Origin: Turnera subulata
Taxonomy: Eukaryota > Streptophyta > Magnoliopsida > Malpighiales > Passifloraceae
Length of the DNA stretch: 64,000 bases
NCBI GenBank assembly: GCA_028386065.3
Contig: JAKUCV010003048.1
Location: 232,423-296,422 of the forward strand
Direction of reading: 5' to 3'
Positions 6,672-47,397 of this stretch are shown here, one piece after another (positions within the stretch are counted from its first letter, which is position 1; every line of letters begins with the position of its first letter). The translations under genes and the position numbers were made by a program. The notes beneath the pieces were generated by a model. That model was not told the origin of the DNA, did no database searches, and saw only the letters and a program-made list of their open reading frames with translations.

Positions 6672-7215
6672 TGTTAGAACAATAGCCCTACGCTAGAGGG
6701 GGAGGGGGGTGAATAGCGTTTATCGGATTAAAAAGAAATAAGCAGGAAATAAATGGGGAGTTTAAAAATTGAAGGACACAAACAATTTATCCTGGTTCAC
6801 ACACACACTACTTGTGTGGCTAATCCAGTCCTTCAAGAGACTCTCTTGAAGATTCCACTATCTATGTTAAGCTTACGGGTGCTTAACAAACCGTTTACAA
6901 CCTAGAGTTCTAGTCACAAGAAACTCTAATCTCCTGCTTGAAGATACCTCACTTCAAGACTTCTCACACAAGAAGATATTCCCTCTTCCTATGAATCTCA
7001 ACAAGGGAATTAACCTCCCTTAGAGTGTATAACAACACAATCACTCAAACAAAGGCTCTCACAAGAGTAGATATGAGTTACAGAATTTAAGCTCAAAAAG
7101 GCAACTCTCAATCCTCAAAGCATATTGGCTCAATTAGGATTTGTAATGTATCAATGAATGGATAGCATGAATGTAGAGAGCTGATTAGTTACTTAATCAG
7201 AGCTGAAAATGCTCA

Positions 7216-7223
7216 ATTTATAG
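7216..7223 (-). promoter_or_regulatory. Putative TATA box of the SIRE LTR
   Basis: On the - strand the sequence reads gaGCTATAAATtg. It lies about 95 bp downstream, in element sense, of the last palindrome pair. The same box is at 17639-17646 in the other LTR. It would place the U3/R border near 7190. Confidence 0.55.
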
Positions 7224-7318
7224 CTCTGAAAAGTTATGGAGCCGTTTGAAATGCACTCAAAAAAACAGCTTTAATCAAAACATAGTGGGTGCTAAAAAGT
7301 TGTCAGAAATAACGGCTC

Positions 7319-7931
7319 AACATCGATGTTTAAAAGTACAACATCGATGTTTTGTCCAGTAATTTGAATTATTGGACTAGCGGTAACTAAAACATCGATG
7401 TTCTCCAACCCAATATCGATGTTATTTTGATTCTGTGAAAAATCCTTTAAAGCATCATGTGAAGAACATCGATGTTTTATAAACCAACATCGATGTTATT
7501 TTGCTTCTGTGAAAATGAGATTAAAACTGATCATTGAAGAACATCGATGTTTAGTTTTACAACATCGATGTTATTTTGCTTCTGTGAACAAGAGTTAAAG
7601 ATCTAATTTGAAGAACATCGATGTTCTAAATCCAACATCGATGTTATTTTGCTTCTGTGAAAAACGATTAAAACTGACCATTATAGAACATCGATGTTGA
7701 CACAAAGAACATCGATGTTGTGATTGTTTTCAAATGCAACGGTCTTTAGAACATCGATGTTATGGATTCTAACATCGATGTTGTTTGCCTACTGCCAGTT
7801 TTTGAAAAAATGGTTGAAGCCAAGAACATCGATGTTTGGGATTCCAACATCGATGTTCTGAGCCTACTGCTTGTTTTGAAGACTTTTTCAAAGGCAGGAA
7901 CATCGATGTGTAAATCCACAACATCGATGTT
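7319..7931. repeat. Array of nine paired 12-bp palindromes AACATCGATGTT in U3
   Basis: Eighteen sites start at 7319/7340, 7391/7412, 7465/7486, 7540/7561, 7614/7634, 7687/7708, 7750/7771, 7825/7846 and 7899/7920. Two are one-base variants (7412, 7899). Start-to-start spacing within a pair is 21 bp in eight pairs and 20 bp in one. Pair-to-pair spacing is 72-75 bp except once (63). The DNA between pairs is partly repeated ('ttttgcttctgtgaa'). The array is duplicated in the other LTR from 17742. Confidence 0.97.
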
Positions 7932-8229
7932 CATGGCTGGAAAATCATTTTTATGCTTGGAAATATGTTATGTGATGGATGAGCAAAATTCATCTTATTT
8001 TGAGCCAATGTCCTAGAAGAGTTGAGTGTTATACCTTGTACAATTTATGAATCTAACTCTTCTTGCTTGGCTCTTCAATCTTGTGCTCATTCACTTTGAT
8101 CCTTTGCTCTTGAATGGTTTCTTTGACTTGAGGATTGATTTGCCTTCATTTCAATTCATTTCTTTTTGCTTCCTGAATAGTTTGTCAATATCAAAACCTA
8201 TAAGAAGCAAGGAGACATTAGTTCCAACA

Positions 8230-8245
8230 ATTTCCCCCTTTTTGA
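8230..8245 (-). other. Polypurine tract of the SIRE element
   Basis: On the - strand this reads AAAAAGGGGGAAAT and directly abuts the 3' LTR. It is the expected plus-strand primer for reverse transcription. Confidence 0.85.
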
Positions 8246-8534
8246 TAATGACAAACAATTTGAAAGTATATGCTAAGGAGTTAGTATATGCCAAGTTTTT
8301 TAAAAAATTGTCAAAGTGAGGTTTAATTCCTCCTAACTTCAATTCCCCCTAACTTGATGCATATACTTATTCTTTTAACCTATGATTCCCCCTTTAATGC
8401 ATATACTATATACTTTCTGTGATTTTTCTCCCTTTTGTCATTAGCAAAAAGAAATGGCGAAGGCAAAGCATTTAATTAAATTGAAAAACAACACATAAAA
8501 CATAAACATAAGTTAATAATTAAGAACAATGGTC

Positions 8535-9740
8535 CTAGTTCCCATCATCGTCCTCATCCTCATCATCGGCAGCCTCTTCCTCATCATCTTCCTCCTCTAC
8601 TTCCATTGGGTCAAAATCTTCATCATCATCATCACCTTCAAAGTTGAAACCTTGAAAGGTTGTGTGATATGGTGGCGGAACATAGTTGACATGAGCAAAA
8701 TAGGCACGCAGGTCATGTCCTTGCCTTTGTACCTCCAAGTCGATTCTGTCAATGGACCCTCCCAAGCTACAGAGAGTGGCGGCAATCGAGTCAAGTGTAG
8801 CGGCAGGAGCTTGAGGAGCGGGAGCTGGAAGAGCAAGTAGTTGAGGAACTGCTTCTTGTGCAGGCCTCGGGACTTCCTCAGATGGGCTCTTGTGAAAAGT
8901 GGCATCGTTAATTGCCCAAAGTTTGGAGTGAGGAGTTTGAGATCCTTCAAAGGGAGTCAGTCCTGCACTCAAACAAATATACACAACCAAAAAAGCATAG
9001 GGAAGGGGATGGTCGTTGGAAGTGTGCTCGGCCATGTGCATGAGCACAAATCGTGCCCAATTGATCGGAGCTCCATGAATAATGGCGTGCAGGACTTTTT
9101 CCTCCTCAATTGTGAAGTTGGTGTGATTACTGGCCCGAGGTTTGATCACCCGAGTAAGCAAATAGAAAAGCACTCTGTACTCCAGGTTGATTGAGTGAAT
9201 GGTTGGCCGATTGGAACGATTACGGCGCACTTCAGTGAAACCAAGATCAGACAGCAGCTGGGTTTCATGGAGAGTGAGGAAATGATCGCCGCCATATGTC
9301 ACGATGTCATGGCCTTGATCAGGTAGGCCTTCAATCTGTCCGAACTGCTTCAGTGTCACCTGAAAACGTCTCCCATTAACACTGGCAGAGAGGACATCAC
9401 CATCACGGTGAAGGATAGTGTAGAAAGTGCGGATGTAGTCCGGATTGAAGTGGTAGTGCTTCCGGGTCACAAAATCCCAGAGACGGGATTCCCGTAAGTG
9501 GCGTTCAAGGTTGGCAAATTGCTTCCTCTGTGGGTAATCTTCTGGAAGAAACCGAGGAGAAGCGATGGCTCGGTTTGTGTAGAAGGATTTGTAGTGTGTG
9601 AGCTCATCTTTGGAACTAAACCAAATTTCTGAATTTGGCACAGAGAATTTGGAAGTAGCACTTGCAGACCCACCCTTTTTCTTGGATTGATGTTCATGGG
9701 CAACTTGCTTGCCTTTGAAACTACGTTTGTCACCAGCCAT
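8535..9740 (-). CDS. Extra ORF in the envelope position: putative plant transposon protein domain with acidic tail
   Basis: This is an uninterrupted 401-residue ORF between pol and the 3' LTR. Residues 1-30 are basic (KRSFKGKQ, QSKKKGG). Residues ~45-260 resemble the putative plant transposon protein domain (Transposase_32 type as I recall it), with FYTILHRDGD, VNGRRFQVTLKQFG, EGLPDQG, a VLHAIIHGAPINWARFVL segment and PLPYAFLVVYICLSAGLTPF. A proline/alanine-rich linker follows, then a very acidic C-terminus of Asp/Glu runs over the last ~45 residues. I see no signal peptide and no convincing transmembrane anchor, so it is not a classical envelope. SIRE-type elements commonly carry an ORF here; its function is unknown. 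The ATG at 9740 is the first in frame. Confidence 0.85.
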   Translation of the reverse strand: MAGDKRSFKGKQVAHEHQSKKKGGSASATSKFSVPNSEIWFSSKDELTHYKSFYTNRAIASPRFLPEDYPQRKQFANLERHLRESRLWDFVTRKHYHFNPDYIRTFYTILHRDGDVLSASVNGRRFQVTLKQFGQIEGLPDQGHDIVTYGGDHFLTLHETQLLSDLGFTEVRRNRSNRPTIHSINLEYRVLFYLLTRVIKPRASNHTNFTIEEEKVLHAIIHGAPINWARFVLMHMAEHTSNDHPLPYAFLVVYICLSAGLTPFEGSQTPHSKLWAINDATFHKSPSEEVPRPAQEAVPQLLALPAPAPQAPAATLDSIAATLCSLGGSIDRIDLEVQRQGHDLRAYFAHVNYVPPPYHTTFQGFNFEGDDDDEDFDPMEVEEEDDEEEAADDEDEDDDGN

Positions 9741-9958
9741 TGTGGGAGGAAGAAATTAAGGGAGATTTGTTGTTTGAGTGTATAAAAAAGAAGCAAAAAA
9801 ATAAAAAAGATTTGCAGGAATTGAGAAAGATGGATGTGAATACAGAAATGGTGAGAGAAGTGGTAGTGAGGAGAAAAGGACCACGGCTGTATAGTAAGGC
9901 TCAGAAAAGTAGCCGTTGCAACGTCCCAACGGCTATTTTTTTTGAAAAATATCCATTA

Positions 9959-10339
9959 AACATCGATGTTGGCTTATAAAACATCGATGTTTGATGATGC
10001 TCAGTCAGCTAAACATCGATTTTCAGAACATAACATCGATGTTTTCAACGGTTGGCCGATAAACCCGAATAGCGCAACGGCTATATTTTTGAAACTGCAA
10101 CGGTTCAAACATCGATGTTGGTCCTCAATACATCGATGTTTTGGACCTTCGGAAATTTAGACAAATTAAATGAAATGGTGCAAACATCGATGTTGGATGA
10201 CTAAACATCGATGTTTCAGCGAAAGTTTTGAAGACTTACCTGAACATCGATGTTGTGATACGCAACATCGATGTTTTGAGCATTCGGCCAGTCGCGAATT
10301 CCATCCAACATCGATGTTGGTAAGGACAACATCGATGTT
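9959..10339. repeat. Second cluster of paired AACATCGATGTT palindromes
   Basis: Six pairs start at 9959/9980, 10012/10032, 10108/10129, 10183/10204, 10243/10264 and 10307/10328. Two single sites are variants (10012, 10129). Spacing inside pairs is again 21 bp, once 20. The cluster lies in the non-coding gap between the extra ORF and pol, upstream of the antisense gene. A further pair is at 11931/11951. Confidence 0.95.
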
Positions 10340-10884
10340 TCTCAGTGTGCGCAGTAGAGTCCTTTTTGTTCAACCTTGTTTGTGATCCGAAATGAGGTGT
10401 ATCTGCAAGACAGAGTTAGTAAAGCCTCGGGTGCTCGAGTTAGTAACAAAAAGATACAAGCTTTATTAGATAGAAACATATGCAACAAATTTAAGACGTA
10501 GTAAGGAAGCCTCTCTGCCACCAAGAAACATTTTCTCCTTGTCGTAAATGCATCGGGCTCGAGAAAATGTCTTGTCAGTTGGACTTTGGTTGCCTCTGAT
10601 GCCCAACTAATCAGACAGTAAATCCCCGTGATGAATCAATAATGCATTTCTGGCCTGGATTTTCAACAAAGCAGATGCTTGATTATCTGTAAAAGTGGAT
10701 GTTAGTAATAAATGAATTGGCAAGTGTCTCAAAAAGAAGATTCTTGAAAAGCGGAGCAGTTTGGAGGGGCCTTCGTCTGAAGATTTTTCAAAGATGGGTA
10801 GGGGTCACCTCCGAAACAAGCTCGGGACATTCCAGAATTCGGTAGGGGTCACCTTCTGAGAGAAGAAGCAATATAGTTGTGTTT

Positions 10885-10893
10885 CTATAAATA
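10885..10893 (+). promoter_or_regulatory. TATA box of antisense gene copy 1
   Basis: The sequence ttCTATAAATAggca lies 96 bp before the ATG at 10981. Equivalent boxes precede copies 2 and 3, with 'CTATAAAa.GGca' shared with copy 2. An A-rich leader follows. Confidence 0.6.
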
Positions 10894-10980
10894 GGCATAC
10901 GATATAGCTCATTATACACAGAAAATTATAAGCCAATTTCTGAAAAACAGTTAAAAAAAATCAAAAGCAAAAAAAAAAAA

Positions 10981-11664
10981 ATGCCTACCCCTTCCACTGT
11001 ATTTTTTGTTGAGGGTGCAGCTGTAGGTAGGAGAAACCGATTAGCCTATAGTATTGTAAGTGAGCCGCCTGAGGAGCTGCCTATTGAACTAGGTAGAATG
11101 TCTCGCTTAGTATTTGTTGATGAGCTCTACTCCTCTAGATTTTTTGTTACACCCATGGAAGAGACTGTTTTTCTTGAGAGTCAAAGCCCACTTAGAACAT
11201 CCTTCTATGGTACCGTCAATGCCACCATGTTCTTCATATCTAAAAGGCTTGAAAGTTTTCAACTGGAGTCTACTCTTCAAACCTTAGAACAAGGAAGTTA
11301 TTACCGTCTATCAATGACTGCTCAGAGTGCTGCACAGGCCCCTGGCTTACCACCGACGTGGCCAAAGGTTCGCCTGCTAGTGTGGAATTGCAGAGGAATC
11401 ACGAGGCGCTCTGAAGACTTTGCAAGAATGTTGAGAGACCTGAAGAACCAGTACAAACCGAACATGGTTCTGCTCACCGAGACATTATGGCAACCTGGCG
11501 AAAACCACGGGGTCATCCCTCTCCGTTTTCTATCAGTGATCCGGTTTGAAATCCCTAGCCAGAATAACTCGGGTGGAATATGGTTTGCATGGAATGATAG
11601 AATTAGGGTTAACATAGTTAATACCCCTACTAGCATTTCTGTCACAGCTGTTCCAAATCGTTAG
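10981..11664 (+). CDS. Chimeric antisense ORF, copy 1: unknown N-terminal domain plus half an EEP (LINE-type endonuclease) domain
   Basis: This is an intact 227-residue ORF on the strand opposite to its host copia element. Residues 1-115 (VFFVEGA, RRNRLAY, VFVDELYSSRFFVT, MFFIS) match no family I recognise. After the linker PGLPPTWPKVR, residues ~137-227 resemble the N-terminal half of an endonuclease/exonuclease/phosphatase domain as in plant LINEs: LLVWNCRGI (metal-binding Asn), NMVLLTETLW (metal-binding Glu), GGIWFAWND. It ends before the catalytic His/Asp motifs, so nuclease activity is unlikely. Copies 2 and 3 stop at about the same place. A TATA box lies upstream and the 3' flank is shared with copy 2. 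Function unknown. Confidence 0.8.
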   Translation: MPTPSTVFFVEGAAVGRRNRLAYSIVSEPPEELPIELGRMSRLVFVDELYSSRFFVTPMEETVFLESQSPLRTSFYGTVNATMFFISKRLESFQLESTLQTLEQGSYYRLSMTAQSAAQAPGLPPTWPKVRLLVWNCRGITRRSEDFARMLRDLKNQYKPNMVLLTETLWQPGENHGVIPLRFLSVIRFEIPSQNNSGGIWFAWNDRIRVNIVNTPTSISVTAVPNR

Positions 11665-11930
11665 GAGCACATTGTAATAAGTCTGTTTACTTTTCAGCAT
11701 TTGTACTCAATTTTCATAATCAATAAAAGTGTTTATGTTTTCAGCATGTGTATGATATAAAATTCTTCCATGTGAATGTTCATCAAACAAGCTAGTGTTT
11801 CAATTTGATCAATTGTGCACTAACTACATGCTTAACATAAATTGAAAGAAATCTGAATATTCTTCCTGAAATATTTAGTCAGGAGCATGCAAGGTTGAGT
11901 GATAAGTGCAAAACCGGACCAGAAGATGAC

Positions 11931-11962
11931 AATATCGATGTTTAATAAGCAACATCGATGTT
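11931..11962. repeat. Isolated AACATCGATGTT pair downstream of the antisense gene
   Basis: The sites AATATCGATGTT (11931) and AACATCGATGTT (11951) are 20 bp apart. With the cluster at 9959-10339 they bracket antisense gene copy 1. Confidence 0.9.
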
Positions 11963-12095
11963 CCATATTTTTCAAATTATGATTCCCGCTATCTTGTTGC
12001 TTTTAGTAAGGGGAGTACCTACAAACCAAAATTAGGGGAGCCTCCGACGCTCAAGTCAGTAATGGTCAAAAAGAGATATGTGAGGAATGCATAGA

Positions 12096-13586
12096 TTACA
12101 TTAAAGTAGAGTCAAGTATGCCAAGTTCAGTTCGAATTCGAAAGTATGACTCTTTGTCTAAGGGTTTTGTAAAGATGTCAGCTAGTTGAGATTTTGTTTC
12201 AATCAATTCAATAGCTACATCTCCCTTGAGAACATGATCCCTAATGAAGTGATGCCTAATATCTATATGTTTTGTTCTAAAATAAAGAACCGGGTTCTTC
12301 GTCAAGCTTATGGCACTTGTGTTATCACATTTAAGAGGCACATGACTAAGGCTTAGACCATAATCTTTTAGTTGTTGTTTCATCCAAAAAATTTGTGCAC
12401 AACAACTTCCAGCGGCAATGTATTCCGCTTCGGTGGTAGACAATGCAACACTAGCTTGTTTCTTGCTAAACCAAGAGACTAATGAGCTACCTAGCTGCAA
12501 ATGGCATGTTCCACTGGTGCTTTTTCGATCTAATTTGCAGCCTGCAAAATCAGAGTCGGAATAGCCTACGAGATGACGTGTAGTGCCTTTTGGATACCAT
12601 AAGCCAACATTTATTGTGCCTACAAGGTATTTCATTATTCGTTTTATAGCCTTAAGATGAGACTCTTTAGGACAAGATTGAAACCGTGCACATAAACAGA
12701 CACTAAATATGATATCCGGCCTACTTGCCGTAAGGTAAAGAAGTGATCCAATCATACCTCGATATTTCTTAATGTCAACTTCAATACCTTTCTCATCTTT
12801 GTCTAAATGTATGGAAGTGCTCATTGGTGTGGCCATTTGCTTGGAGTTGTCCATTTCAAAGCGCTTGAGCAGCTCTTTGCAATACTTGGATTGGGAGATG
12901 AATGTTCCTTCCTTCATTTGTTTGACTTGTAAACCGAGGAAGAATGTCAACTCACCCATCATGGACATCTCAAACTCACTGGTCATCATGTTAGAGAATT
13001 CCTTGCACAAAGACTCATTAGTGGCACCAAAAATAATATCATCTACATAAATTTGAACCAAAAGAATGTTATGATGTTTGTTCTTAATGAATAAGGTGGT
13101 GTCAACCTTCCCTCTAGTGAATCCATTATCCAAAAGAAATTTACTCAAACGTTCATACCAAGCTCTTGGAGCTTGTTTGAGACCGTAGAGTGCTTTCTTG
13201 AGTTTAAAAACATGATCGGGAAAGGTATGATCTTCAAAGCCAGGAGGTTGAGCAACATATACTTCCTCTTGGATGAAGCCATTTAGAAATGCACTTTTGA
13301 CATCCATTTGATAAAGTTTGAAATTCATAGATGATGCAAATGCAAGCAAAAGACGAATGGCTTCTAGACGTGCAACAGGTGCATATGTTTCTTCAAAATC
13401 AATTCCTTGTTCTTGATTGTATCCTTTTGCTACCAACCTAGCTTTGTTTCTAGTTATTATGCCATTTTCATCTAGTTTGTTTCTAAACACCCATTTCGTG
13501 CCAATTATTGTATGATCAATGGGCCTTGGAACCAATTCCCAAACATCATTACTTTTGAATAGATTTAGCTCTTCTTGCATAGCCAA
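12096..13586 (-). CDS. pol: SIRE copia reverse transcriptase and RNase H
   Basis: The ORF is 496 residues. RT motifs in order are [69 protein letters not shown] and the catalytic YVDDIIFGA near residue 180, followed by [16 protein letters not shown]. RNase H shows [41 protein letters not shown] and RHHFIRDHV, and the ORF ends normally after DIFTKPLD. It is the C-terminal part of Pol. It is separated from integrase by a single in-frame TAA near 13635, and the apparent Met is internal. All catalytic residues are present. Confidence 0.95.
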
Positions 13587-13634
13587 GGTCCAATGTTCAT
13601 CATTAATTGCTTCAGAAATGGTTGTAGGCTCAAT

Positions 13635-14591
13635 TTATGAAACAAATGCAATGTGTCCTATGTTATCTCTAAGAGAATTTCGAGTACTTACCCCGCGGTT
13701 GATATCACCTATTACCGTGTCAAGGGGATGATCTTTGGACTCTCGCCATGCTCTAGGTAACTCTTGGTTGATATCAACCATTGTTTCTTGCATATCTTCC
13801 ACTGGGCTTGGTTCTTCTTGTTGAGGTACAACCTCCATTTCTTGTTGAGGTGTAGGTTCGGTTGAAGTGCCTCCTTTCTTCCAAACGTTGTCTTGCATAT
13901 CTTCTTCTTCCTTATCATCCAATGACATCTTCTCAAGTGTACCTACAAGATCATCACAGAAATCCTTTCTTGTCGAGCGAGTATTATTCTCTGCAAATAC
14001 AACATGAGGAGACTCCTCAACACTTAAGGTTCGTTTGTTAAAAACTCTATACGCTTTGCTGCGCAATGAATAGCCTAGAAAGATGCCTTCATCAGATTTT
14101 GCATCAAATTTTCCCAAATTGTCTTTTCCATTATTATGCACAAAACATTTGCAGCCAAAGACTCTAAGATGGGAAATATTTAGCTTTTTTCCCTTGTATA
14201 ATTCATAGGGTGTTTTCATGAGTAATGGCCTAATGATTGCTCGGTTTAACACGTAGCAAGCCGTACTTACTGCATCAGCCCAGAAATACTTAGGAATATT
14301 AGCCTCATTGAGCATAGTTCTTGCCATTTCCTCAAGACACCGATTTTTGTGTTCAACAACGCCATTTTGTTGTGGTGTCCGAGGGGCTGAGAAATTGTGC
14401 TCAATGCCATATTTAACACAAAAAGCTGAAAAATGATTGTTTTCAAATTCTCCTCCATGATCACTTCTAATGCAAGCAATTAAACAACCTTTTTCATTTT
14501 GAACTTTCTTAAGAAAGCTCTTAAATGTATCAAATGCTTCACTTTTATGAGTAAGGAATAAAGTCCAAGTGAATCTAGTATAATCATCCAC
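13635..14591 (-). pseudogene. pol: SIRE copia integrase core and C-terminal linker
   Basis: The catalytic core shows DDYTRFTWTLF, RSDHGGEFENNHF (second Asp) and NFSAPRTPQQNGVVEHKNR (catalytic Glu), giving the D,D-35-E pattern. The segment continues through AYRVFNKRTLSVEESPHVVF, the copia integrase C-terminus, and a Gln/Glu-rich linker before RT. It is bounded by in-frame TAA codons at both ends (near 14625 and 13635). Only these two changes interrupt an otherwise continuous PR-IN-RT-RH reading frame. Confidence 0.93.
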
Positions 14592-14624
14592 AATAACAAA
14601 TGCATAATAGTTCCCTCGAAAACT

Positions 14625-15263
14625 TTAAATTTGTGAGGGACCAAAGAGATCCATGTGCAAAAGTTGAAGTGGTCTAGATGTTGAGACAACGTTTTTAGAA
14701 TGAAACGAAGCTCGCACTTGCTTCCCCTTTTGACATGCATCACATATGGAATCCTTCTCAAATTTAATTTTTGGAATGCCAACTACTAAGTCTTGATTAA
14801 CTAGTTTGTTTAGCATTTTCATATTAACATGACCTACTCTACGATGCCATAACCATATATCATCTTCTTTGCTCATTAGACATTTTGAAAACTTTGATGA
14901 AGACTCTTCTAAGTTAACCATATAAATATTGTCAATTCTATCACCATGTAGAATGATCTTATTATCACTAAGACGTTCTACGGTGCATGACTTGGAATCA
15001 AAGATTACACGATTTCCCTTATCACATAATTGACTTATGCTTAAGAGATTGTGTTTAAGACCCTTAACAAGCAAAACATTATCAATGGAAGAAGACTCAT
15101 CTTTGCCAACCGAGCCAATGCCGATGATCTTTCCTTTGTTGTTGTCTCCAAAGACAATGTTTCCTCCATTTGATGGCTTTATTTGCAAAAATTTGGATGC
15201 TTCTCCGGTCATGTGCTTGGAGCATCCGCTATCAAGGTACCAAAGTACACTTGATGCCTTCAA
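14625..15263 (-). pseudogene. pol: SIRE copia protease and GAG-pre-integrase domain
   Basis: The protease active site is YLDSGCSKHMTG at the start. GAG-pre-integrase follows: DDIWLWHRRVGHVNMKMLNKL. The integrase zinc end and first catalytic Asp region follow with ICDACQKGKQ and LLHMDLFGPSQI. It ends at a TAA where family members have a sense codon. The first residues overlap the Gag terminus in another frame, so expression needs recoding or a lesion has occurred at the gag/pol border. Confidence 0.9.
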
Positions 15264-15282
15264 TCATACCTACAACATCAAA

Positions 15283-17042
15283 TCATTGAGATTTAGGTAC
15301 CCAAATCTTCTTGGGTCCTTGAGTGTTAGGAGCATAGTGGTTATGAGCTTCTTCTTGAGCCCAATGCCTATGCCTAGTGAAACAAACAAGAGCAATGTGT
15401 CCTATTCTATTGCAATAATGACAAATGACATTTGGGTTATGCATTCTTCTAGGTTGATAGTAGTTACTATGTTTCCTATACTTATGCACATTACTCACTT
15501 TGTTTACCATAAGTTGTACCTTAGGTTTCTTTGATTCAACTTTATGTCTTTTAGGTTCATTTCTAAAACCTATTCCATGCCTAGTAGATTGCAAATTACC
15601 TAGCATAGAATTCAGATTTTTATGAGGAGTATTAAACTTTTTCAAGGTTGTTTCAAGTTGTTCAGCTTGTTTCCTTAAAGGTATACATGATGAACATTCC
15701 TCTATACTTTTCTTTTCTAGCATCTTATTTTTATCCTTCAGCTTCCTATTTTCACATGCTAATTTTTCATTTTGTTCTTTTAAAGAGCCACATGATACAC
15801 ATTTCTTGGGTGTGTCTAGAGTCGTATTTTCTTCTTTAAGATTCTTATTCTCTTTAGACACATTTTCCATATCATTTTCCAAAGCTATAACTTGTTTCTT
15901 TAAGCACTTATTAACTTTAGAAATAGAAATGAATTCACCATAAAGCTCATCAAATGCATTTTGTAACTCTTCATATGAGACATTTTCATTTGGAGTGGTA
16001 CTTACCTCTTCCGGTTCTTCCCTTGCCATGAGACATAGGTTAGCCGTTTCTTCTTCATCGCTATCGGATGATTCATCACCGGAATCGCCTCCCCATGAGA
16101 TGTATGCCCTTTGCTTCTTGTAGGACTTCTTCTCCTTTCCCTCCTTCGCTTTGGGGCACTTGGGCTTGATGTTCCCACTCTCTCCACACCTATAGCATTT
16201 GGGTGGTCCGGACATCTTTCTCCCTTTCTTTACAAATTCCTTCTTCATGAATTTGTGGAATTTGCGGATGACGAGTCCGAGTTCCTGATCGTCATCGCTA
16301 GAGTCCGATTCAGTGAGCTCTTGTGTCTTGGAGGTGGAAGCCTTGAGAGCTATGTTCTTCTTCTTTGGTTCCTGCAAAGAGGGTTTAAGAATAGTAGTTT
16401 CAAAGGTTAGAAGATTACCTCTAAGACTGTCAATGGTTGTGTTCGATGTCCTGATGTTTTCAAAGATTGCGTCGGCTTTGGAGCGCCATTCGGGAGTGAG
16501 GCATCTAAGGACTTTTCTGACCAAGTCCTTGTCGGAGTAGACCTTCTTGAGAGCATGAAGGTTATTTACGATTTTAGAAAACCGTTCAAACATCTCCTCA
16601 ATTCCTTCGTTCTCCTTCATTCGAAAGAGTTCGTAATCTGCAGTGAGGGAGTCGATTTTGGCCTCTCGAACTTGATCGGTTCCTTCATAGGTGACCTCCA
16701 GCTTATCCCACTTTTTTTTTGCGGTTGTGCAGTAAGAGATTTCCGGTAATCATCGGGGTTGACTGCACAGTAGAGCATGTTGATTGATTTGGCATTGTTT
16801 TCAACCAACGTAATGTCTGCAGCGTTGTACTCCTCCTCCGTCTTTGGCACTTGGATTTCACCAACTTTCTTCGTCGAAATTTGCTCTCCAATCTTCATGA
16901 TTCGCCAAAGAGCATAGTTGTTGGATTGGAGGAAAATTCTCATCCTCTCCTTCCAGTAGCTATAATTAGTGCCATCAAAGAACGGTGGACGAGTGGTTGA
17001 TTGTCCTTCGAAGAGTCCTGCATGATTACTTGAAGAAGCCAT
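15283..17042 (-). pseudogene. gag: SIRE copia Gag, split by one frameshift
   Basis: The N-terminal piece (17042-16617) carries the diagnostic RPPFFDGTNYSYWKERMRIF segment. The downstream piece (to 15283) has MKENEGIEEMFERF, LRCLTPEWRSKADAI, a CCHC knuckle CYRCGESGNIKPKC, a long Lys/Glu coiled-coil-like region (ENDMENVSKENKNLKEEN), and a second knuckle CHYCNRIGHIALVC near the C-terminus. The two pieces join across a T homopolymer at 16711-16719, where a one-base slip explains the shift. Two knuckles separated by a coiled coil fit the unusually large SIRE Gag. The ATG lies ~56 bp after the 5' LTR. Confidence 0.92.
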
Positions 17043-17084
17043 AGAAAATTTTCTCTCAAACGGTTAAGTCTTTCAGAGAGTTAG

Positions 17085-17098
17085 GCTGCGCTACCAAT
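17085..17098 (-). promoter_or_regulatory. Primer binding site of the SIRE element
   Basis: On the - strand, TTGGTAGCGCAGCC directly follows the 5' LTR end. It is similar to the plant initiator-Met primer site. Confidence 0.7.
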
Positions 17099-18652
17099 TG
17101 TTAGAACAATAGCCCTACGCTAGAGGGGGGGTGAATAGCGTTTAACGGATTAAAAAAAAAATAAGCAGGAAATAAATGCGGAATTAAAAAATTGAAGGAC
17201 ACAAACAATTTATCCTGGTTCACACACACACTACTTGTGTGGCTAATCTAGTCCTTCAAGAGACTCTCTTGAAGATTCCACTATCTATGTTAAGCTTACG
17301 GGTGCTTAACAAACTGTTTACAACCTAGAGTTCTAGTCAGAAGAAACTCTAATCTCCTGCTTGAAGATACCTCGCTTCAAGACTTCTCACATAAGAAGAT
17401 ATTCCCTCTTCCTATGAATCTCAACAAGGGAACTAACCTCCCTTAGAGTGTATAACAACACAATCACTCAAACAAAGGCTCTCACAAGAGTAGATATGAG
17501 TTACAGAATTTAAGCTCAAAAAGGCAACTCTCAATCCTCAAAGGATATTGGCTCAATTAGGATTTGTAATGTATGAATGAATGGATAGTATGAATGTAGA
17601 GAGTTGATTAGTTACTTAATCAGAGCTGAAAATGCTCAATTTATAGCTCTGAAAAGTTATGGAGCCATTTGAAATGCACTCAAGAAAACAGCTTTAATAA
17701 AAACTTAGTGGGTGCTAAAAAGTTGTCAGAAATAACGGCTCAACATCGATGTTTAAAAGTACAACATCGATGTTTTGTCCAGCAATTTGAATTATTGGAC
17801 TAGCGGTAACTAAAACATCGATGTTCTCCAACCCAATATCGATGTTATTTTGATTCTGTGAAAAATCCTTTAAAGCATCATGTGAAGAACATCGATGTTT
17901 TATAAACCAACATCGATGTTATTTTGTTTCTGTGAAAATGAGATGAAAATTGATCATTGAAGAACATCGATGTTTAGTTTTACAACATCGATGTTATTTT
18001 GCTTCTGTGAACAAGAGTTAAAGATCCAATTTGAAGAACATCGATGTTCAAAATCCAACATCGATGTTATTTTGCTTCTGTGAAAAACGATTAAAACTGA
18101 CCATTATAGAACATCGATGTTGACACAAAGAACATCGATGTTGTGATTGTTTTCAAATGCAACGGTCTTTAGAACATCGATGTTATGGATTCTAACATCG
18201 ATGTTATTTGCCTACTGCCAGTTTTTGAAAAAATGGTTGAAGCCAAGAACATCGATGTTTGGGATTCCAACATCGATGTTCTGAGCCTACTGCTTGTTTT
18301 GAAGACTTGTTCAAAGGCAGGAACATCGATGTGTAAATCCACAACATCGATGTTCATGGCTGGAAAATCATTTTTATGCTTGGAAATATGTTATGTGATG
18401 GATGAGCAAAATTCATCTTATTTTGAGCCAATGTCCTAGAAGAGTTGAGTGTTATACCTTGTACAATTTTTGAATCTAACTCTTCTTGCTTGGCTCTTCA
18501 ATCTTGTGCTCATTCACTTTGATCCTTTGCTCTTGAATGGTTTCTTTGACTTGAGGATTGATTTGCCTTCATTTCAATTCATTTCTTTTTGCTTCCTGAA
18601 TAGTTTGTCAATATCAAAACCTATAAGAAGCAAGGAGACACTAGTTCCAACA
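17099..18652 (-). mobile_element. 5' LTR of the SIRE-type copia element
   Basis: It is 1,554 bp and collinear with 6672-8229. It contains the same nine palindrome pairs (first pair at 17742/17763) and the TATA box at 17639-17646. Its outer end TTCCAACA is followed by target duplication CGGGA. Confidence 0.95.
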
Positions 18653-23182: not shown

Positions 23183-23560
23183 CTATTCAAGAAAGAGTAG
23201 CATACAACTCATGATTGAGGGCACACCACAACTGTGACGGTGGCTCCTTGCCAAAGTATGAGCAGCATTATTAGCCTCACGTTTAACAAAAGCCAAGGAG
23301 AGTACGAGTCCAGAGGACAAGATAGATTTAATATCATCTAAAAGCATTCCCATGGTAGTGGAAGGAGTATCAGAGGTCATAATTAAGTAATTTAACAAGG
23401 ACCTGGCAATCAGACTCAACATAAAGCCTTGAAAAACCTGCATCCCATGCAAAGAGAAGAGCATCCTTAAGAGCAACAGCTTCAGCAACCAAAGGGGAAA
23501 AGCTTTTAAAGTATGAGGGATGGCGTTCTCAAAAAAAAAAAAAGTATGAGGGATGGCCAT
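23183..23560 (-). pseudogene. RNase H-like (RVT_3) fragment
   Basis: The - strand translation contains DDIKSILSSGLVLSLAFVKREANNAAHTLAR. This matches the C-terminal helix and FV.R.AN..AH.LA signature of plant RNase H-like domains found in LINE derivatives and host genes. An upstream part encoding 'VESDCQ'-like residues is present in another frame, so there is at least one frameshift. It also carries a 16-nt poly(A)-tailed insertion at 23525-23540. This is a decayed fragment, not a gene. Confidence 0.65.
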
Positions 23561-24521
23561 GACGCTCCTCCGCCATTGCTCGTAAATGTCAGATACCAAA
23601 ATAGACAAAAGCTTTAAAAGAAATATGAGACTATGCGAATCCTGAAGAAAACATAGAAACTGATTGTAACTTTTCAAGGATTAGAGATAAGAATTTATAT
23701 ATTCATCAAAAGCGAAAAACATTTAAGCTGTTCTTAGAAAATATCTTGGACAGGCAGAATTTACAGGAATGATATTTGTAAGCTAACTAAATAATAAAAT
23801 TGACGGAAATACTAGTCTAAGGAGCTCTAACTTAATACTGGTATCATTTTTCAAGGCTGAAGGTCTCGTCCTAATAGTAATCTACAGAACTAAAAAAAGA
23901 TACAAAAATTCTATTTTCTTAATTAAAAAAAAATCCCAATATCAAAGAGATTACCATTCTTGATAATAAGTACAAGATTTTTTTTGATGCTAAATAATAA
24001 GTACAAGATTCTTGTGGTGCTTATAAGTTGTAATCTTTTGCACCCGCTAATAATGTTTCTTAATAACAGGGAGCAAGCATAGATGACATGGAAAGTGGAA
24101 GTTTGGTTTGGTAGATATATTTGGTAATTTCACCAGATTGGCAAAAAAATGATGTTTGAGATATTCATATTATGGTCATTCTATGGTGCTCCTTGAGTAT
24201 GGTACTCACCATAATTATTTTTTATTAATTAAATTTTATGTAATATTAATTTGAAGAATTCAAAGAATAATAAATACTTTCGTTATTTAAGAATATTTTT
24301 ATTTCCATTTCAATTGGAAATTTAAATTTATAACTTATTAAGAGTTGGGGTAGATCTATTCATTTTAGGAGGTCGACCTAATAGTTATTAATGGGTCAAC
24401 CCATTAAAATCACAGGTCGACCTATCAACTAAATAATTATTAATAGGTCAATACGTTTAAATTAACAGGTGAACCTATTAGTTAGTAAATATAATTTTTT
24501 TTATTGCGTAGAGGTAGACCT

Positions 24522-27986: not shown

Positions 27987-30734
27987 TGTAACGCCCCGAC
28001 CAACAATTACCCAACAAATAGCAATTATTGAATAACAGTGCCGACACGAGGCATAAACAATGTAAATAACGATATACCGGCCCAACGGCCCAATAACAAA
28101 TACGTCACCCGAACCCGGGGACCCAAAATATAGCACAACGGAAGCATTTTAATCTCATAAGCAACATATGCAAAACCCCAAATGCAATCTAATGGATCCA
28201 AGTCCTGCCCGAGGGTACACTGCAGCTTGCCTCACACGTTCCTGTACTCAACACAAACAAACTACTTGACCGAGTCACGCAGGCGAGGGGTGAGTCCGAA
28301 GTGCTCCCCGGGTAAAATCCATAAGCAAATATACATATACAAGCAACCGATAATAACCAAGTCATAACAAACAGCGATTATCCAAAGTTTTCCCAAAACT
28401 TAGATAGCACTCTTGGTGATCCTAGACACACCATTCCAATTTTATTATCAGGGCCCCTATCACTAGTTAAGTGGTGGCAGTTGCCAGGTAGTCAAGCTAG
28501 CTAGGCCGTGGATCCCGCCCTGGTACCTCCACGTAATAACTGGCACAGACAGAGAGCAGACCCCAAGCACACTCTCCCCCAACGCCTAAAATAAAAATTT
28601 GTACAGACAGGGAGCAGACCCCAAGCACACTCTCCCCTAGCACCATAAATATAAAGACTACCATCAGGCTGTTCCAACATTTAACCGTGACTTTACTAGA
28701 TGTCTAAGTGTTTTCATTTCATTATCTTATTTTCCCTCGACTTGTTATCACATTACTATTAACCGACCATTATACATTATCCCGAGCAGGCTCACAGCCC
28801 CTTCGCTCATCTAGATAATACAAACTTATTCCAAACGGTCATCCCATACTAGTACCCCCGGTACTCAACTCACACTATTCTCACAGTCAACAACAACAAC
28901 AATAAACTTACTTTTACTAAGAATTCCAACATCATCAATATCATCAACAACTAATCACAGTCACAAAAGTAGTGTCATACCAGCAAATATCACACATAGT
29001 AAACAAACAACAACTTGATATCACGGGCAGTATATAAATATTTACTTATCCTCACCTTAGCCGATTATCAGGTTTAGAAATCCTCAAAAGGGTTCCAAAG
29101 TCGGTTCCTCGTTCAACTGCTCAGTAACAACTCCTATATAACAAATAATATGCACACAGAAGATGCACAGCAAATAATATGCAAATGACAAAATGTAATG
29201 TTCCCATTTACCCCAGTGCTTCTTTGGTTATGATAAGAACATTATCATTTACCATTATTAATCCATTTCTAAAAATAATATATCATATTTATATCCGGAT
29301 ATTATTTTCGGTATTATACTTAGATAATACCCTTTTCAATTTTTTTTTTATATTTATTTATCTCAACTTATATTTTTCCATAAGGTATTTACCATCATAT
29401 AATTTTTTTTCGAAGATAATCATATATATATTTATATATATTTTCTAGAAATATATTCCCATATACAGTTATCATTATTATATATATTTTCTTTTTGAAA
29501 GTATCCATAGTATATATCTTTTTCTATAAAACAATTACCAGATGAAACATTTCAAATAATATTTTCAGAAAATAACTGTATGTCTTACCATTTTTATTTT
29601 TATTTTTATTTTTTTAAATCGGGCTGGGCCAAATCTCACAGCCCACAGCCCAACCCAACATCTCCAACCCATACACACTAATGTCCAGGTCACAGGTCCA
29701 AGACACCAGGCCCAAGACCAGGCCCGATTCTTGAACCCAACAGCCATGACCCATGCCAGACCCGTTTGAAAATCGGGGTCAGCTCACCTACAACCCGGAA
29801 CCTCACGGGTTGAACGGCAAGCGAGGCGGGCACGAGCAGCAATGGCGACTGCAGGTGAAGGTGGCACCAGCAGCGGTGGCGACTGTAGGCGAAGGTGGCG
29901 CGACGCGAGGAAGAGGCGACGTGAACGGCTGCAGGGGACGGCGAGGTGGAGATGAAGGTAACGGATCGTGGGCGGCGTCGATCTGTAGCAAAGGAGGAAG
30001 GCGACGACGCGGCGGCTGACGAGCTCCTGCTTCGTCGGCGGCGCGATGGGGAGGAGAAGGAAGAAGGAGGAGGTGGCGCGTTGGTGATGGTGGCGGCGAG
30101 GTGCTCTCTGGTGGTGGTGGATCGGTTTGTTGTTATCTTTTTTTTTCTTTTTTTCTTTCTTTTCTCTCTTTATTTTTCTGGTTTCTCTTCTCTCTTTTTT
30201 TTTCTTTTCTTTTCTTCTTTTCTTTTTTTTTTCCTTCTTTGGTTTTGCAGGTGATGGGAACGTAATTGAAGAGCAGGTATGGTGTTTCTGAAGAAAAAAA
30301 AAAGTGATACAGGGTTTGTAAGATGAAGATGAAGAAGATGGTGTATGAGAAGGCAGAGTGAAAACGGTATATAGGCTATGCAAGGGTGGGTGGCACAGGA
30401 AGCAGGCGGCGCAGACATGCATAATTAAGCCGCCTCTCAATTATGCAGGTCTGTCTGCAACGTAGGCGTGTACTGTTCGGACCAGAAAATAACTGATATA
30501 CCTCCTTAGTTATATTTCTGGTGTGATTTTCTGATGATTTTGGGACCCGAAAAATACCAACTTTGGTCCGGAAAAATCCACAGAAAAATCCCGAGCGCGG
30601 GAAAAACCTCGGTTTTGAAAAGCAACGCTCGATTTACCTTGAATTAATTACCCAAAATTAAATTCAAAGGTAAATCACTGTATAACGATTTTTATAGTCC
30701 GGTAAAAATCCAAATTTTTACCCGGGCTGTTACA
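27987..30734 (-). mobile_element. 3' LTR of the level 2 element
   Basis: It is 2,748 bp. In element sense it begins TGTAACAGCCC at 30734 and ends GGGGCGTTACA at 27987. A TATA (reverse of 30366-30374) is followed by a pyrimidine-rich leader and the donor-like GTAG|GTGAGC (29782-29791, reversed). A 58-bp tandem pair 'gagcagaccccaagcac' lies at 28550-28650. ORFs of low complexity here are not genes. Confidence 0.9.
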
Positions 30735-30772
30735 GTTTACCCACCTTAAAAAGAATTTCGTCCCCGAAATTC
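30735..30772 (-). other. Polypurine tract of the level 2 element
   Basis: On the - strand it reads 'aatttcggggacgaaatt' then 'aaggtgggtaaac' against the LTR. It is nearly identical to the tract at 19752-19790, which links this element to the Tekay lineage. Confidence 0.75.
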
Positions 30773-30875
30773 CGTCTTATCCGTGGGTCCTACCTCGATA
30801 AGCTTCTGGTATACTCCACCAGCTGTCCGAACTCAACACGATATCTCGCTTATACCCTTACGCGTCTCTGGCTCC

Positions 30876-30885
30876 CTTATAAAAA
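30876..30885 (+). promoter_or_regulatory. TATA box before the 107-residue antisense ORF
   Basis: The sequence ccCTTATAAAAAcc lies 44 bp before the ATG at 30920. The ATG context is ctgccATGGa. Confidence 0.45.
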
Positions 30886-30919
30886 CCAAACCTCAACCCT
30901 GGCAAACTCATTCTCTGCC

Positions 30920-31243
30920 ATGGACTCACCAATAAGAACTCAAACTACCTTTGACTCAGAGGAGTTAAGTTATATTGGTGGTGCTAATCCCTTCATGACA
31001 GATTCCGATGAAGAACCTCCGAAGAAACGCTTCAAGACGAACATCATCGGTCTCAAGGAACATATGGTGGTCTCCAGGAGACGGCGAAAGAAACCTGTCG
31101 GCAAGGAGGAGCCTTCCAGTAGCAAGGATGCTGATGATAGGAAGGGCAAAGCAACTGCTCCCAGCGATAAATCACAGCAGACCCTGAAGCTTTTGACCGC
31201 TTCACTGAAGAAGATCAACACGGCGGTGATGCAGATCGAATAG
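30920..31243 (+). CDS. Antisense ORF of unknown function with nuclear-localisation-like motifs
   Basis: This 107-residue ORF lies in the internal region of the level 2 element, opposite to its sense. I recognise no family. An acidic patch (DSDEEPP) is followed by two basic clusters, PPKKRFK and SRRRRKKPVGK, that look like nuclear localisation signals. A Ser/Lys/Asp-rich stretch and an amphipathic TLKLLTASLKKINTAV end follow. A TATA box and a good ATG context precede it. It is too short and unique here to call firmly as a gene. Confidence 0.4.
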   Translation: MDSPIRTQTTFDSEELSYIGGANPFMTDSDEEPPKKRFKTNIIGLKEHMVVSRRRRKKPVGKEEPSSSKDADDRKGKATAPSDKSQQTLKLLTASLKKINTAVMQIE

Positions 31244-32017
31244 GCGTGTATGGGACTCCCTCTCAGGTCGAGAACATACAAAAACTTGTAAAAGATGTAG
31301 AGAAGCAAGTAACTCCATAGAGTACTCCTTCTCTATTGTAAAACGTTATGATAAATAAAACAAGCTATTCTTTCCAAAACAGAACTCTTTTTAAAGATAT
31401 GAAAACTCATCTTAAGCAGAAAAGCAAGCATTTTAAGGCAAACAAAAACCAAGCATAAAGAAGTAAAAACAAAACATGTTTCCATGTCCATCGCTCTAGA
31501 TCGGTCATATAGGTCCTCGAGCCAGAGAAACACAACTCCCATAACTGACGGAGAAGTCGGTTCTCCTCGTGAAAAAGACATCCGTTAACTCACAAGGTGA
31601 TGATCAAGAGCACGTCCTGTGTCCCTCGAAAGAAATGATATCCACCTGTCCACAAGCCAAAAACTTCTTCCAGGTATCGTATCCCTCCATGATGTCCAAA
31701 AAGATGCAACCTGTCACACATACACTCTACCTGAGGTATGGTCCAATCAATCTAGCCACAACGGTCACGGATGCATGTGATAAAAGATGCAGGAAAAAGC
31801 CATAAAAAGGAAAAAGCAAGGTAGCCAAACGTGAAAGAAAATGTAAGATGTAAACGAGCTGAAAAATACTCGTGTATGTAGCCTAAAAAACATATAAAGT
31901 GACAAAGCAAAATTTCAAACCAGTGGCAAAATTTTCAAAAAGCAAAATCTTGAAGATCGCAAACGGTTTGGAGTTTTGTGAAAAGAATCTACTTTTCCTA
32001 TCCCCGAAAAATATTTT
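31244..32017. other. Internal non-coding stretch of the level 2 element
   Basis: No supported gene. It is of mixed composition, with short ORFs on both strands that have no recognisable domain. Confidence 0.5.
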
Positions 32018-32238
32018 GAATTTTTTTTCTTTCTTTCTTTCTTTTTCTTTTTCTTTTTCTTCTCTTTTTTTTCTTTTTCTTCTTCTTTTTTTTCTTAACT
32101 TTTTTTTTCTTCTCTTTTTTTTCTTCTTTGTTTACTGTTTCTCTTTTTTTATATTTCTTCTCTTTTTTTTTTCTTTACCCTTTTTCTTCTTCTTTTTTTC
32201 CTTTCCTTTCCTTTTCTTTTCTATTTCTTTTTTTTTCG
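32018..32238. repeat. ~220-bp polypyrimidine (T/C) tract
   Basis: This is almost pure T and C on the + strand (runs of ttct and tttc), ending ~45 bp before the TATA box of antisense gene copy 2. ORFs rich in Phe/Ser across it are artefacts of composition. Confidence 0.9.
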
Positions 32239-32281
32239 GGAACAGGTGGGGTCTATACTTTGAAAAAAGGTAATCATATGT

Positions 32282-32290
32282 CTATAAAAG
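32282..32290 (+). promoter_or_regulatory. TATA box of antisense gene copy 2
   Basis: The sequence gtCTATAAAAGgca lies 87 bp before the ATG at 32369. It is homologous in position and sequence to the box at 10885-10893. Confidence 0.6.
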
Positions 32291-32368
32291 GCAAGCGCTG
32301 GAAAGCAAATAACCCAAAAAGCATCTGAAAACGTTCAGAAAAAGTAAAACACAACGCGTCGAGACAGC

Positions 32369-33052
32369 ATGCCTGCTCCATCATCTGTCTTCTTCGTCGA
32401 GGGTGCCTCCCTCAGAAGAAGAAACCGGTTGGCCTACAGCCTGATCAACGAACGTCCAGAGGAACTACCAAATGAGCTCGGCAGGATGCCTCGTCAGGTC
32501 TTCGTCGACGAACTCTACTCCTCCAGGTTCTTTGTCACTGCTATGGAAGAGACGTCCTTCCTGGAGGATCAAAGCACCCTAAGAAGCTCCTACTATGGCT
32601 CGGCCAATTCCGTCATGTTTTTCATTTCTGAAAGACTTCAGGAATTCAACCTAGAGCCTACTTGCCGATTCCTGGACCAAGGTACCTACTACAAGCTTTC
32701 GATGACTGCCCAGAGCATGCCCTGAGTAACTCGGTTACCACCAACTTGGCCAAAGGCCCGTCTACTGGTGTGGAACTGCAGAGGAATCGCTAGGCGTTTC
32801 CAGGAGTTTTTGCGTACCTTGAGAGATCTGAAGAACCAGTACAAGCCCAACATGGTACTGTTAACGGAGACCCAATGGCAGCCTGAAGACAGTCACGGTG
32901 TCATTTTACTTCGGTTCCCTCCTGCAAACCGGTTCGAGCTTCCTGGCCAGAACAACACGGGCGGTATGTAGTTTTCGTGGAATGATAGCATTAGGGTCAA
33001 CATTACCAATGATCCTAATAGCTTCAGGGTCAACGTTGTACCAAGAAGATAA
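32369..33052 (+). pseudogene. Chimeric antisense ORF, copy 2 (two nonsense codons)
   Basis: It is collinear with copy 1 over its whole length, starting MPAPSSVFFVEGA and ending within the same PRR/PNR tail. The N-terminal domain (to residue ~115) is open. A TGA near 32723 falls in the linker where copy 3 has Arg. A TAG near 32969 replaces Trp in GGMWFSWND. The EEP-like part retains WNCRGIARR and NMVLLTETQW. Compared with copy 1 most differences are at third codon positions. The ~140 bp after the stop are also homologous to copy 1 (shared 'caagctag' and 'actaacta'). Confidence 0.8.
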
Positions 33053-33283
33053 ATAATTTTAATAATAATAATAATGTAATAATAGTATCAGTAATATTAA
33101 TAATATTTATATTTCTGCATGTTTATGGCATCAATTACCTCTTATATGAATATTCTGTGGCAAGCTAGCGTCCCTCGACTGGATCCATCATGTACTAACT
33201 AAATGACATAAATGCAAAATGATAAACATATGGAGCGAGCTATGCACAGCAAATAAGCAAAACAATCACCCAAGGACCTACCG

Positions 33284-33301
33284 CCTGCTCCGCTACCAAA
33301 A
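33284..33301 (-). promoter_or_regulatory. Primer binding site of the level 2 element
   Basis: On the - strand, TTTTGGTAGCGGAGCAGG directly follows the 5' LTR. It is essentially the site at 3013 of the Tekay element. Confidence 0.75.
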
Positions 33302-34638
33302 TGTAACGCCCCGACCAACAATTACTCGACAAATAGCAATTATTGAATAACAGTGCCGACACGTGGCACAAACAATGTAGATAACAATAAGCCAGCCCAA
33401 CGACCCAATAACAAACACGTCACCCGAACCCAGGGACCCAAAATACAGCACAGCGGAAGCATTTTAATCTCATAAGCAACATATGCAAAACCCCAAATGC
33501 AATTTAATGGATCCGAGTCCTGCCCGAGGGTACACTCCAGCTTGCCTCGTACGTTCCTGTACTCAACACAAACAAACTACGTGACCGAGTCACGCAGGCA
33601 AGGGGTGAGTCCGAAGTGCTCACCGGGTAAAATCCATAAGCAAATATACATATACAAGCAACCGATAATAACCAAGTCACAACAAACAGCGATTATCCAA
33701 AGTTTTCCCAAAACTTAGATAGCACACTTTGTGATCCTAGACACAGTATTCCAATTTTATTATCAGGGCCCCTATCACTAGTTAAATGGTGGCCGTCGCC
33801 AGGTAGTCAAGCTAGCTAGCCCGTGGACCCTGTCCTGGTACCTCTACGTAATAACTGGCACAGACAGGGAGCAGACCCCAAGCACACTCTCCCCCAGTGC
33901 CTAAAATAAAAATTGGTACAGACAGGGAGCAGACCCCAGGCACACTCTCCCCCAGCACCATAAATATAAAGACTACCATCAGGCTGTTCCAACATTTAAC
34001 CGTGACTTTGCTAGATATCTAAGTGTTTTCATTTTATTATCTTCTTTTTCCTCGACTTGTTATCACATTACTATTAACCAAACATTATACATTATCCCGA
34101 GCAGGCTCACAGCCTCTCCGCTCGTCTAGATAATACAAACTTATTCCAAACGGTCATCCAATACTTGTACCCCCGATACTCAACTCACACTATTCTCACA
34201 GTCAACAACAACAACAATAAACTTACTTTTACCAACAATTCCAACATCATCAATATCATCAACAACCAATCACAGTCACAAAAGTAGTGTCATACCAGCA
34301 AATATCACACATAGTAAACAAACAGCAACTTGATATCACGAGCAGTATATAAATATTTACTTATCCTCACCTTAGCCGATTATCAGGTTTAGAAATCCTC
34401 AAAAGGGTTCCAAAGTCGGTTCCTCGTTGAACTGCTCAGTAACAACTCCTATATAACAAATAATATACACACATAAGATGCACAACAAATAATATGCAAA
34501 TGACAAAATGTAATGTTCCCATTTACCCCAGTGCTTCTTTGGTTATGATAAGAACATTATCATTTACCATTATTAACCCATTTCTAAAAATAATATATCG
34601 TATTTATATCCGGATATTATTCCGTCATTATACTTAGT

Positions 34639-34744
34639 GTAACGGCCCGAATTTTCGATATTTAATTTCTATGGAATTTTCGGAATTTTTGAAATTTTAT
34701 TTCCAATTTTACCATTGCAAAATTTTTGGGTATTTATTTCCTTG

Positions 34745-34792
<48 letters not shown>

Positions 34793-39182: not shown

Positions 39183-39289
39183 TGTAACGCCCCGAATTTT
39201 CGATATTTAATTTCTATGGAATTTTCGAAATTTTTAAAATTTTATTTCCAATTTTACCCTTGCGAATTTTTTGGGTATTTATTTCCTTG

Positions 39290-39339
<50 letters not shown>

Positions 39340-47340: not shown

Positions 47341-47397
47341 TTTTATGTTTTTTTTAATTACAATTGGGCTATCAAAAGGCCCATTATATTTAATTTA

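Follow-up and report, generated by a model that had tools for sequence, protein, structure and literature searches.

An antisense accessory gene with a truncated EEP-like domain in copia and gypsy LTR retrotransposons of Turnera subulata

Introduction

Some plant LTR retrotransposons carry, besides gag and pol, an additional open reading frame in antisense orientation (aORF). Such genes have been reviewed for Grande, RIRE2, Retand and PvRetro13 (PMC7264820), and Retand has been surveyed separately (PMC11963269). The aORF-3R genes of these gypsy elements (Grande gene23, RIRE2, Retand TRP28, PvRetro13) lie antisense in the element interior, between pol and the 3' LTR, and are conserved across copies; Grande gene23 is reported to have its own promoter (PMC7264820, PMC11963269). 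The gene presented below has no TRP28 match in Pfam. In the literature consulted here, antisense ORFs of plant LTR elements have so far been described for gypsy lineages, and we found neither an antisense gene in SIRE nor one common to copia and gypsy elements in the titles and abstract openings of the open-licence literature searched. A broad survey takes extra ORFs into account from 250 codons upwards and, for SIRE, reports forward ones (PMC6317226); the gene presented below, with 227 codons, falls under the cut-off of that main survey.

Two further systems offer partial parallels. In bdelloid rotifers, the ORF3 genes represent one accessory ORF of enzymatic origin present in unrelated retroelements, as is the case here, but they are of DEDDy and GDSL types and belong to animal elements, whereas the present gene is EEP-like, antisense, and carried by plant copia and gypsy elements (PMC5408684). 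VANC, a family-specific anti-silencing protein encoded by VANDAL transposons whose targets are often tandem repeats (PMC5735166), provides an analogy only: it belongs to a DNA transposon and not to LTR retrotransposons, and any function for the aORF drawn from it would be by analogy.

Here we describe an antisense gene of Turnera subulata that resembles aORF-3R in its antisense position in the element interior and its conservation across copies. Unlike aORF-3R, it occurs in both copia and gypsy hosts, has a recognisable half of an EEP domain, and is the main or only intact ORF of non-autonomous families, in one of which it does not lie between pol and the 3' LTR. This host range and pattern of retention are unusual for an antisense aORF.

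Results

The stretch of DNA analysed, hereafter the window, comprises 64,000 nucleotides of contig JAKUCV010003048.1 and contains three copies of the gene, sharing start, frame, end and upstream region over 227 codons. Copy A (10981-11664, plus strand) is open and encodes 227 aa, of which residues ~130-222 represent the first part of an EEP domain. Copy B (32369-33052, plus strand) is interrupted by two in-frame stops, a TGA at codon 119 and a TAG at codon 201. Copy C (48440-49138, minus strand) likewise has two (TAA and TAG) and has lost the usual stop, its reading frame extending four codons further. We could not find a fourth copy within the 64 kb. The three copies are 68-71% identical in DNA, and the proteins of B and C are respectively 69% and 67% identical to that of A, with a sole indel in the 227-codon alignment, one in-frame codon in C. 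The five alternative frames contain 8-24 stops, which rules out a spurious ORF.

The host of A is a SIRE-type copia element of ~12 kb on the minus strand (6672-18652), with LTRs at 6672-8229 and 17099-18652 (97.8% identical), a CGGGA target site duplication (TSD), gag-pol running from 17042 to 12096, and an env-like ORF (8535-9740, minus strand) matching PF20167 (Transposase_32). Copy A lies between the end of pol (12096) and the env-like ORF (9740-8535), which is followed by three AGGGGGAA polypurine tract (PPT) octamers. Multiple PPT octamers near the 3' LTR mark Sireviruses, and the A-ending variant present here is given for ToRTL1 and Tnd-1 (PMC2829016). The whole element is nested in the integrase region of a plus-strand chromodomain gypsy element (559-22486), whose left LTR seems to be interrupted by a further element at the edge of the window.

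The host of B, which we call X, is a non-autonomous chromovirus-type gypsy element (27987-43735) with TSD GACTG, a PPT at the left end of its interior and a PBS at the right end, which places it on the minus strand. Its LTRs are ~2.75 kb long, the left one at 27987-30735 and the right one split into 33302-34637 and 42281-43735 by a nested element (34638-42284) having 3.1-kb LTRs (97% alike), an interior of 1.45 kb and a likely TSD CTTAG. X has no pol, hence no gypsy pol with chromodomain of its own, and the chromovirus-type label is drawn solely from its LTR edge (83% over 248 bp against the outer chromodomain element), PBS and PPT. The host of C is a decayed copia-like element (46148-52252) bounded by 116-bp direct repeats (46148-46261 and 52137-52252), and a purine tract before the right repeat assigns it to the plus strand. 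Elsewhere, the window contains an RVT_3 (RNase H-like) fragment, possibly from a LINE (23183-23677, minus strand), and a copia-type gag fragment (PF14244, below cut-off) with weak similarity to the SIRE protease region (62033-63971, plus strand).

The initial annotation had claimed three copies with the same start and end, each antisense to its host, in a SIRE, a non-autonomous gypsy and a decayed copia element, with homology from the TATA box region to beyond the stop. The window coordinates and host strand assignments bear this out, and the alignment of the flanks carries the homology further, to a distal upstream block. The three host types also stand, with the addition that the C family has the gene on the 5' side of a reverse transcriptase (RT) remnant and not between pol and the 3' LTR.

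The upstream control region of A (10715-10980, plus strand) comprises this conserved distal block, a GTAGGG-type block and a TATAAA at -95, and its 3' region (11665-11830, plus strand), partly conserved in B, has an AATAAA ~61 nt after codon 227. In B, the upstream region (31877-32368, plus strand) is split by a ~200-bp pyrimidine tract (32026-32236) between the distal block and the gene, and TATAAA is at -86. In 29 of the 30 genomic copies examined, a TATAAA precedes the ATG by 62-126 nt, the exception being locus L021. AATAAA or AATAAT occurs within 200 nt after codon 227 in all 30, although this is weak evidence in such A+T-rich DNA. The upstream blocks are common to different clades.

We searched the source plant's own genome (518.7 Mb, 7125 contigs) with each copy. 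For A, the best 150 of 8115 candidates were scored and all matched, at 82-95% identity apart from A itself, plus a group of 26 at 73-76%; counted by eye, as was the size of that group, 102 of these 150 listed matches have no internal stop and 48 do. The best 150 of 8042 candidates scored for B include 149 others at 86-92%, with 69 of the 150 listed free of stops and 81 interrupted (by eye), and the best 150 of 7589 scored for C include 149 others at 85-89%. The candidate totals are unscored, overlap between queries and are not copy numbers. Judging from the identity ranges among the matches listed, each window copy represents a large family of its own.

Loci for inspection were picked by similarity and not at random: L001-L008 are the best eight of query A (L001 is the window's copy A), 20 of the 26 listed at 73-76% make up L009-L028, L029-L036 are the best eight of query C (L029 being copy C), and L037-L044 were picked by hand. 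The sequence used for L001-L008 and L029-L036 covers ~1.5 kb on each side only. The frameshifted L012 and L027 were excluded from codon counts and tree, and L031, which is the same place as L038, from the dN/dS of the C family. Alignment without frameshift was possible for 28 of 30 copies; of these, MPxP is the start in 23, VPNR the end in 26, and codon 227 is immediately followed by a stop in 24.

In 26 of the 28 loci L001-L028, SIRE gag, protease-region or RT sequence lies 3' of the gene (positions +846 to +1403 relative to its ATG), always antisense, while L014 and L023 gave no SIRE host match. The X family (L040-L042) and the C family (L037, L038) are antisense too, so that the relation to gag-pol seen in aORF-3R genes holds in all three settings. 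Random orientation and ragged ends, which would have spoken against a gene unit, were not observed at the loci inspected. The dispersed antisense unit proposed by the initial annotation is supported, and can be extended to an accessory module of SIRE that is also present in pol-less SIRE, gypsy and copia-like families.

Among these 28 loci, the nearest host sequence is RT in seven and, in 19, the start of the protease region adjoining gag, which means that pol is missing there. Env-like sequence up to 2.3 kb upstream of the gene is antisense in 12 and was not found in 16. In seven loci (L010, L011, L017, L018, L019, L021 and L028), SIRE-type LTRs, incomplete in L017 and L019, flank gag and the antisense gene, and we could not recognise any pol or env between these LTRs. 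Because pol-less loci fall into two clades of the tree (L004 and L006-L008 versus L010 and others), pol was probably lost from the SIRE lineage at least twice. Copy A and its relatives are therefore found both in SIRE elements that retain pol, where the gene lies between pol and the 3' LTR like aORF-3R, and in pol-deleted derivatives that retain gag. One of the two loci with no host match, L023 (G000:C2104:71600-81500), has the unit outside any recognised SIRE host, its distal block being a tandem array of ~138-bp units.

The gene is not universal in SIRE. A search with SIRE RT, for which the best 86 of 14055 candidates were scored (87 rows representing 86 distinct copies), returned at least nine listed copies, the window's own included, that adjoin a listed aORF in antisense with coordinates 438-465 apart, and two more with a listed aORF at 2.2 and 4.4 kb; this adjacency was counted by eye between the RT matches listed and the query-A matches listed, and nine is a lower bound. 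Moreover, searches at E up to 1 detected no aORF in L043 and L044, two relatives at 98% in RT; env was likewise not found there, and the linker passes almost directly from the pol terminus into the PPT region and LTR. SIRE evidently copies itself without the aORF, and the existence of such close relatives makes the gene optional: it is an accessory module and not a standard SIRE component. Presence in most copies of its family would be expected of an aORF-3R gene; here, the figure for SIRE is at least nine of the 86 close RT copies listed, and the samples of the X and C families are biased.

In X, the interior contains a segment derived from the SIRE linker (30833-33074, plus strand). Three blocks of it, spanning 1.5 kb before the ATG to 0.7 kb past it, are colinear with the linker of pol-less SIRE derivatives. 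L040, L041 and L042, three of the 149 B-like matches listed, have the X interior in common from the left to the right LTR edge; in each, the gene occupies the corresponding antisense position and its ORF is open. A non-autonomous gypsy-type element has taken up a SIRE segment together with the gene and multiplied. We could not find gag in the X interior by tblastn with the window's gag proteins, nor in the C-family loci.

C-like copies have flanks in common. In C itself, the homology with SIRE covers roughly the transcription unit and no more. L038 has 360-bp LTRs (97.2% identical) and, judging by the sides on which its PPT- and PBS-like sequences lie, gene and element run in opposite directions; the gene is the only internal ORF of at least 150 codons. 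In L037, the region upstream of the gene contains a weak antisense match to RT (E 3e-4), which puts the gene between the 5' LTR and the RT remnant. From this remnant and from copia-like motifs, we take the family to be copia; nine fragments of the C element gave no match in Pfam. This is a non-autonomous family in which the gene is the sole long intact ORF seen.

The protein is under purifying selection, both between and within families. Between A, B and C, pS is 0.77-0.82, with silent sites near saturation, and pN 0.15-0.19, and 129-131 of 205-224 differences fall at third positions. Mean dN/dS between clades is 0.06-0.18 where computable, pairs with C being saturated. Within clades it is 0.29 (A-like), 0.31 (pol-less) and 0.71 (L009, L014, L016, L020, L024), higher values being expected if dead copies are included. 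In the C family (ten copies, 45 pairs), median dN/dS is 0.08, with pS 0.38 and pN 0.042, and the alignable flanks differ by 0.15; seven of the ten copies have no internal stop, two of these seven being without ATG. Between L009 and A, local identity is 76% for the aORF, 64-74% for RT, 54% for the protease region, 49% for INT, 43% for env and 27-34% for gag.

Concerning the protein, the N-terminal 120 residues have no match in Pfam, NCBIfam or PDB sequences; this agrees with the initial annotation, which knew no family for that part, and it is not an annotated part of a LINE in the two domain databases. The C-terminal part, previously recognised as the first half of an EEP endonuclease, is confirmed as such by weak in-register matches in Pfam and NCBIfam and by profile-profile comparison. 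Four of six members match the Pfam EEP profile, all below the curated cut-off (E-values of 0.1 for A, 0.014 for B, none for C and 5.4e-4 for the relative P0004, the best being 2.3e-4); four of five queries give weak in-register NCBIfam matches; and the profile-profile probability is 97.9%, as computed against five EEP proteins returned by our own profile search. As in plant LINE-type EEP (PF03372), the WNCRG and TET motifs are present and the register is kept over the first 92 profile positions. However, unlike in LINEs, the protein stops before the second half, has a new N-terminal half and no RT. The second half of EEP domains carries further catalytic motifs; here the Pfam match ends at position 88-92 of 225, so this half is missing and no complete EEP with both catalytic halves is present. 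Asn136 is kept in 28 of 28 copies and Glu167 in 27 of 28. The computed pI is 9.45.

A protein search with P0001 alone gave no match at E 1, and alignment-based searches recovered three distant relatives, 36-40% identical: P0004 and P0007, from short ENA contigs, have the layout of the aORF and end at the same point, and P0008 has the N-terminal part in common and diverges thereafter. The common end point of the former two indicates that the truncation is old, in line with the earlier suggestion that it is ancestral. In the tree, the three relatives form their own clade, and the copies outside SIRE (B, C and L023) join the pol-less SIRE clade (support 94/92). Among PDB sequences there is no match for P0001 or A1 and two weak ones for A2 (E 0.72 and 0.91), neither an EEP enzyme; structure models (pLDDT 30 and 48) have no fold match at E < 0.01 and lend no support to fold claims. 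In a search for viral relatives, 61 stretches in viral contigs fit a pattern and none was a relative.

The SIRE element also contains arrays of the palindrome ACATCGATGT, spaced ~21 and ~53 bp, with 17 occurrences in each LTR (6672-8229 and 17099-18652) and 11 in the spacer between env-like ORF and aORF (9961-10330). One more CATCGATG lies at 11953, and all 46 CATCGATG sites of the window are within the SIRE element. We found no ACATCGATGT in gag-pol, nor in the 52 kb outside the SIRE element, X and C included, and this absence from X and C rejects a palindromic cis motif common to all hosts. The palindrome could be a candidate target of an element-encoded factor.

Discussion

We are highly confident of the anatomy of the aORF and of the selection acting on it. 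What these represent is a more tentative matter. The reading we put first, at somewhat less than an even chance, is that of a modular antisense accessory gene of plant LTR elements, swapped between copia and gypsy and probably coding for a nucleic-acid-binding regulator. Sequence comparison points to exchange of the aORF between copia and gypsy elements; expression and mechanism are inferred. The gene would be transcribed from its own predicted promoter, independently of the LTR, to give a ~26-kDa protein with a pI of 9.5. The C-terminal half, an incomplete and probably non-cleaving EEP domain, would bind nucleic acid, and the N-terminal half may give specificity for a partner or target. Because each family keeps its own diverged version, the protein may be a nuclear regulator serving the family that encodes it, for instance by countering silencing or controlling copying or import. 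The transcription unit as a whole would pass between elements via template switching or recombination. Such a regulatory mechanism is tentative, and it deserves clearly less assurance than the anatomy and selection.

A bolder version, which we consider doubtful, would make the freely swapped antisense unit a family-specific counter-silencing or regulatory gene, one that crosses the copia/gypsy divide, is dispensable to autonomous elements and sustains non-autonomous families with hardly any other gene, each family having its own version and targets. In SIRE, the targets would perhaps be the ACATCGATGT palindrome arrays of LTR and linker.

Alternatively, the protein may be unconnected with regulation or silencing and serve replication directly, helping element RNA or cDNA through packaging, reverse transcription or nuclear import, and non-autonomous families would keep the gene since its action favours the element that encodes it. 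The retention of gag together with the gene in pol-less SIRE derivatives fits such a role, as does the conservation of the aORF at the level of RT between L009 and A. However, close autonomous SIRE elements manage without the gene, and the X interior and C-family loci keep it where tblastn finds no gag. We regard this explanation as rather unlikely.

Origins outside the LTR elements are far less probable. Repeated capture of a host gene family by different elements might account for L023, where the unit has no recognised SIRE host and the same 10 kb contain an apparently leucine-rich-repeat-like ORF. But the tree places B, C and L023 alongside the pol-less SIRE clade, the SIRE linker present in X extends far past the gene, and no non-mobile copy was seen in the inspected loci (a small part of the matches listed), so that we give capture little credence. 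It is just as improbable that an independent mobile element, for example a truncated LINE, was inserted into LTR elements several times, despite the resemblance of the EEP half to plant non-LTR elements and the limitation of homology to about the unit in C and L023: the truncation is at the 3' side, whereas LINEs are usually 5'-truncated, SIRE loci with and without pol have the gene in identical position and orientation, the part shared by X goes beyond the unit, and no target duplication or tail stands out around the unit in the alignments. Finally, regulation by antisense transcription, in which the RNA and not the protein matters, agrees with the antisense position and conserved upstream region and has been proposed for other aORFs (PMC7264820), but is disfavoured by the codon constraint (third-position bias, pN far below pS, a single in-frame indel) and appears the least probable of all.

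Returning to the modular accessory gene, its persistence intact in families that have lost other genes suggests a helper gene that jumping genes hand on among themselves. An antisense gene common to copia and gypsy elements, with a half-nuclease domain, and maintained by selection as the sole long intact ORF seen in entire non-autonomous families, makes both the function of antisense accessory genes and the maintenance of non-autonomous retrotransposons testable.
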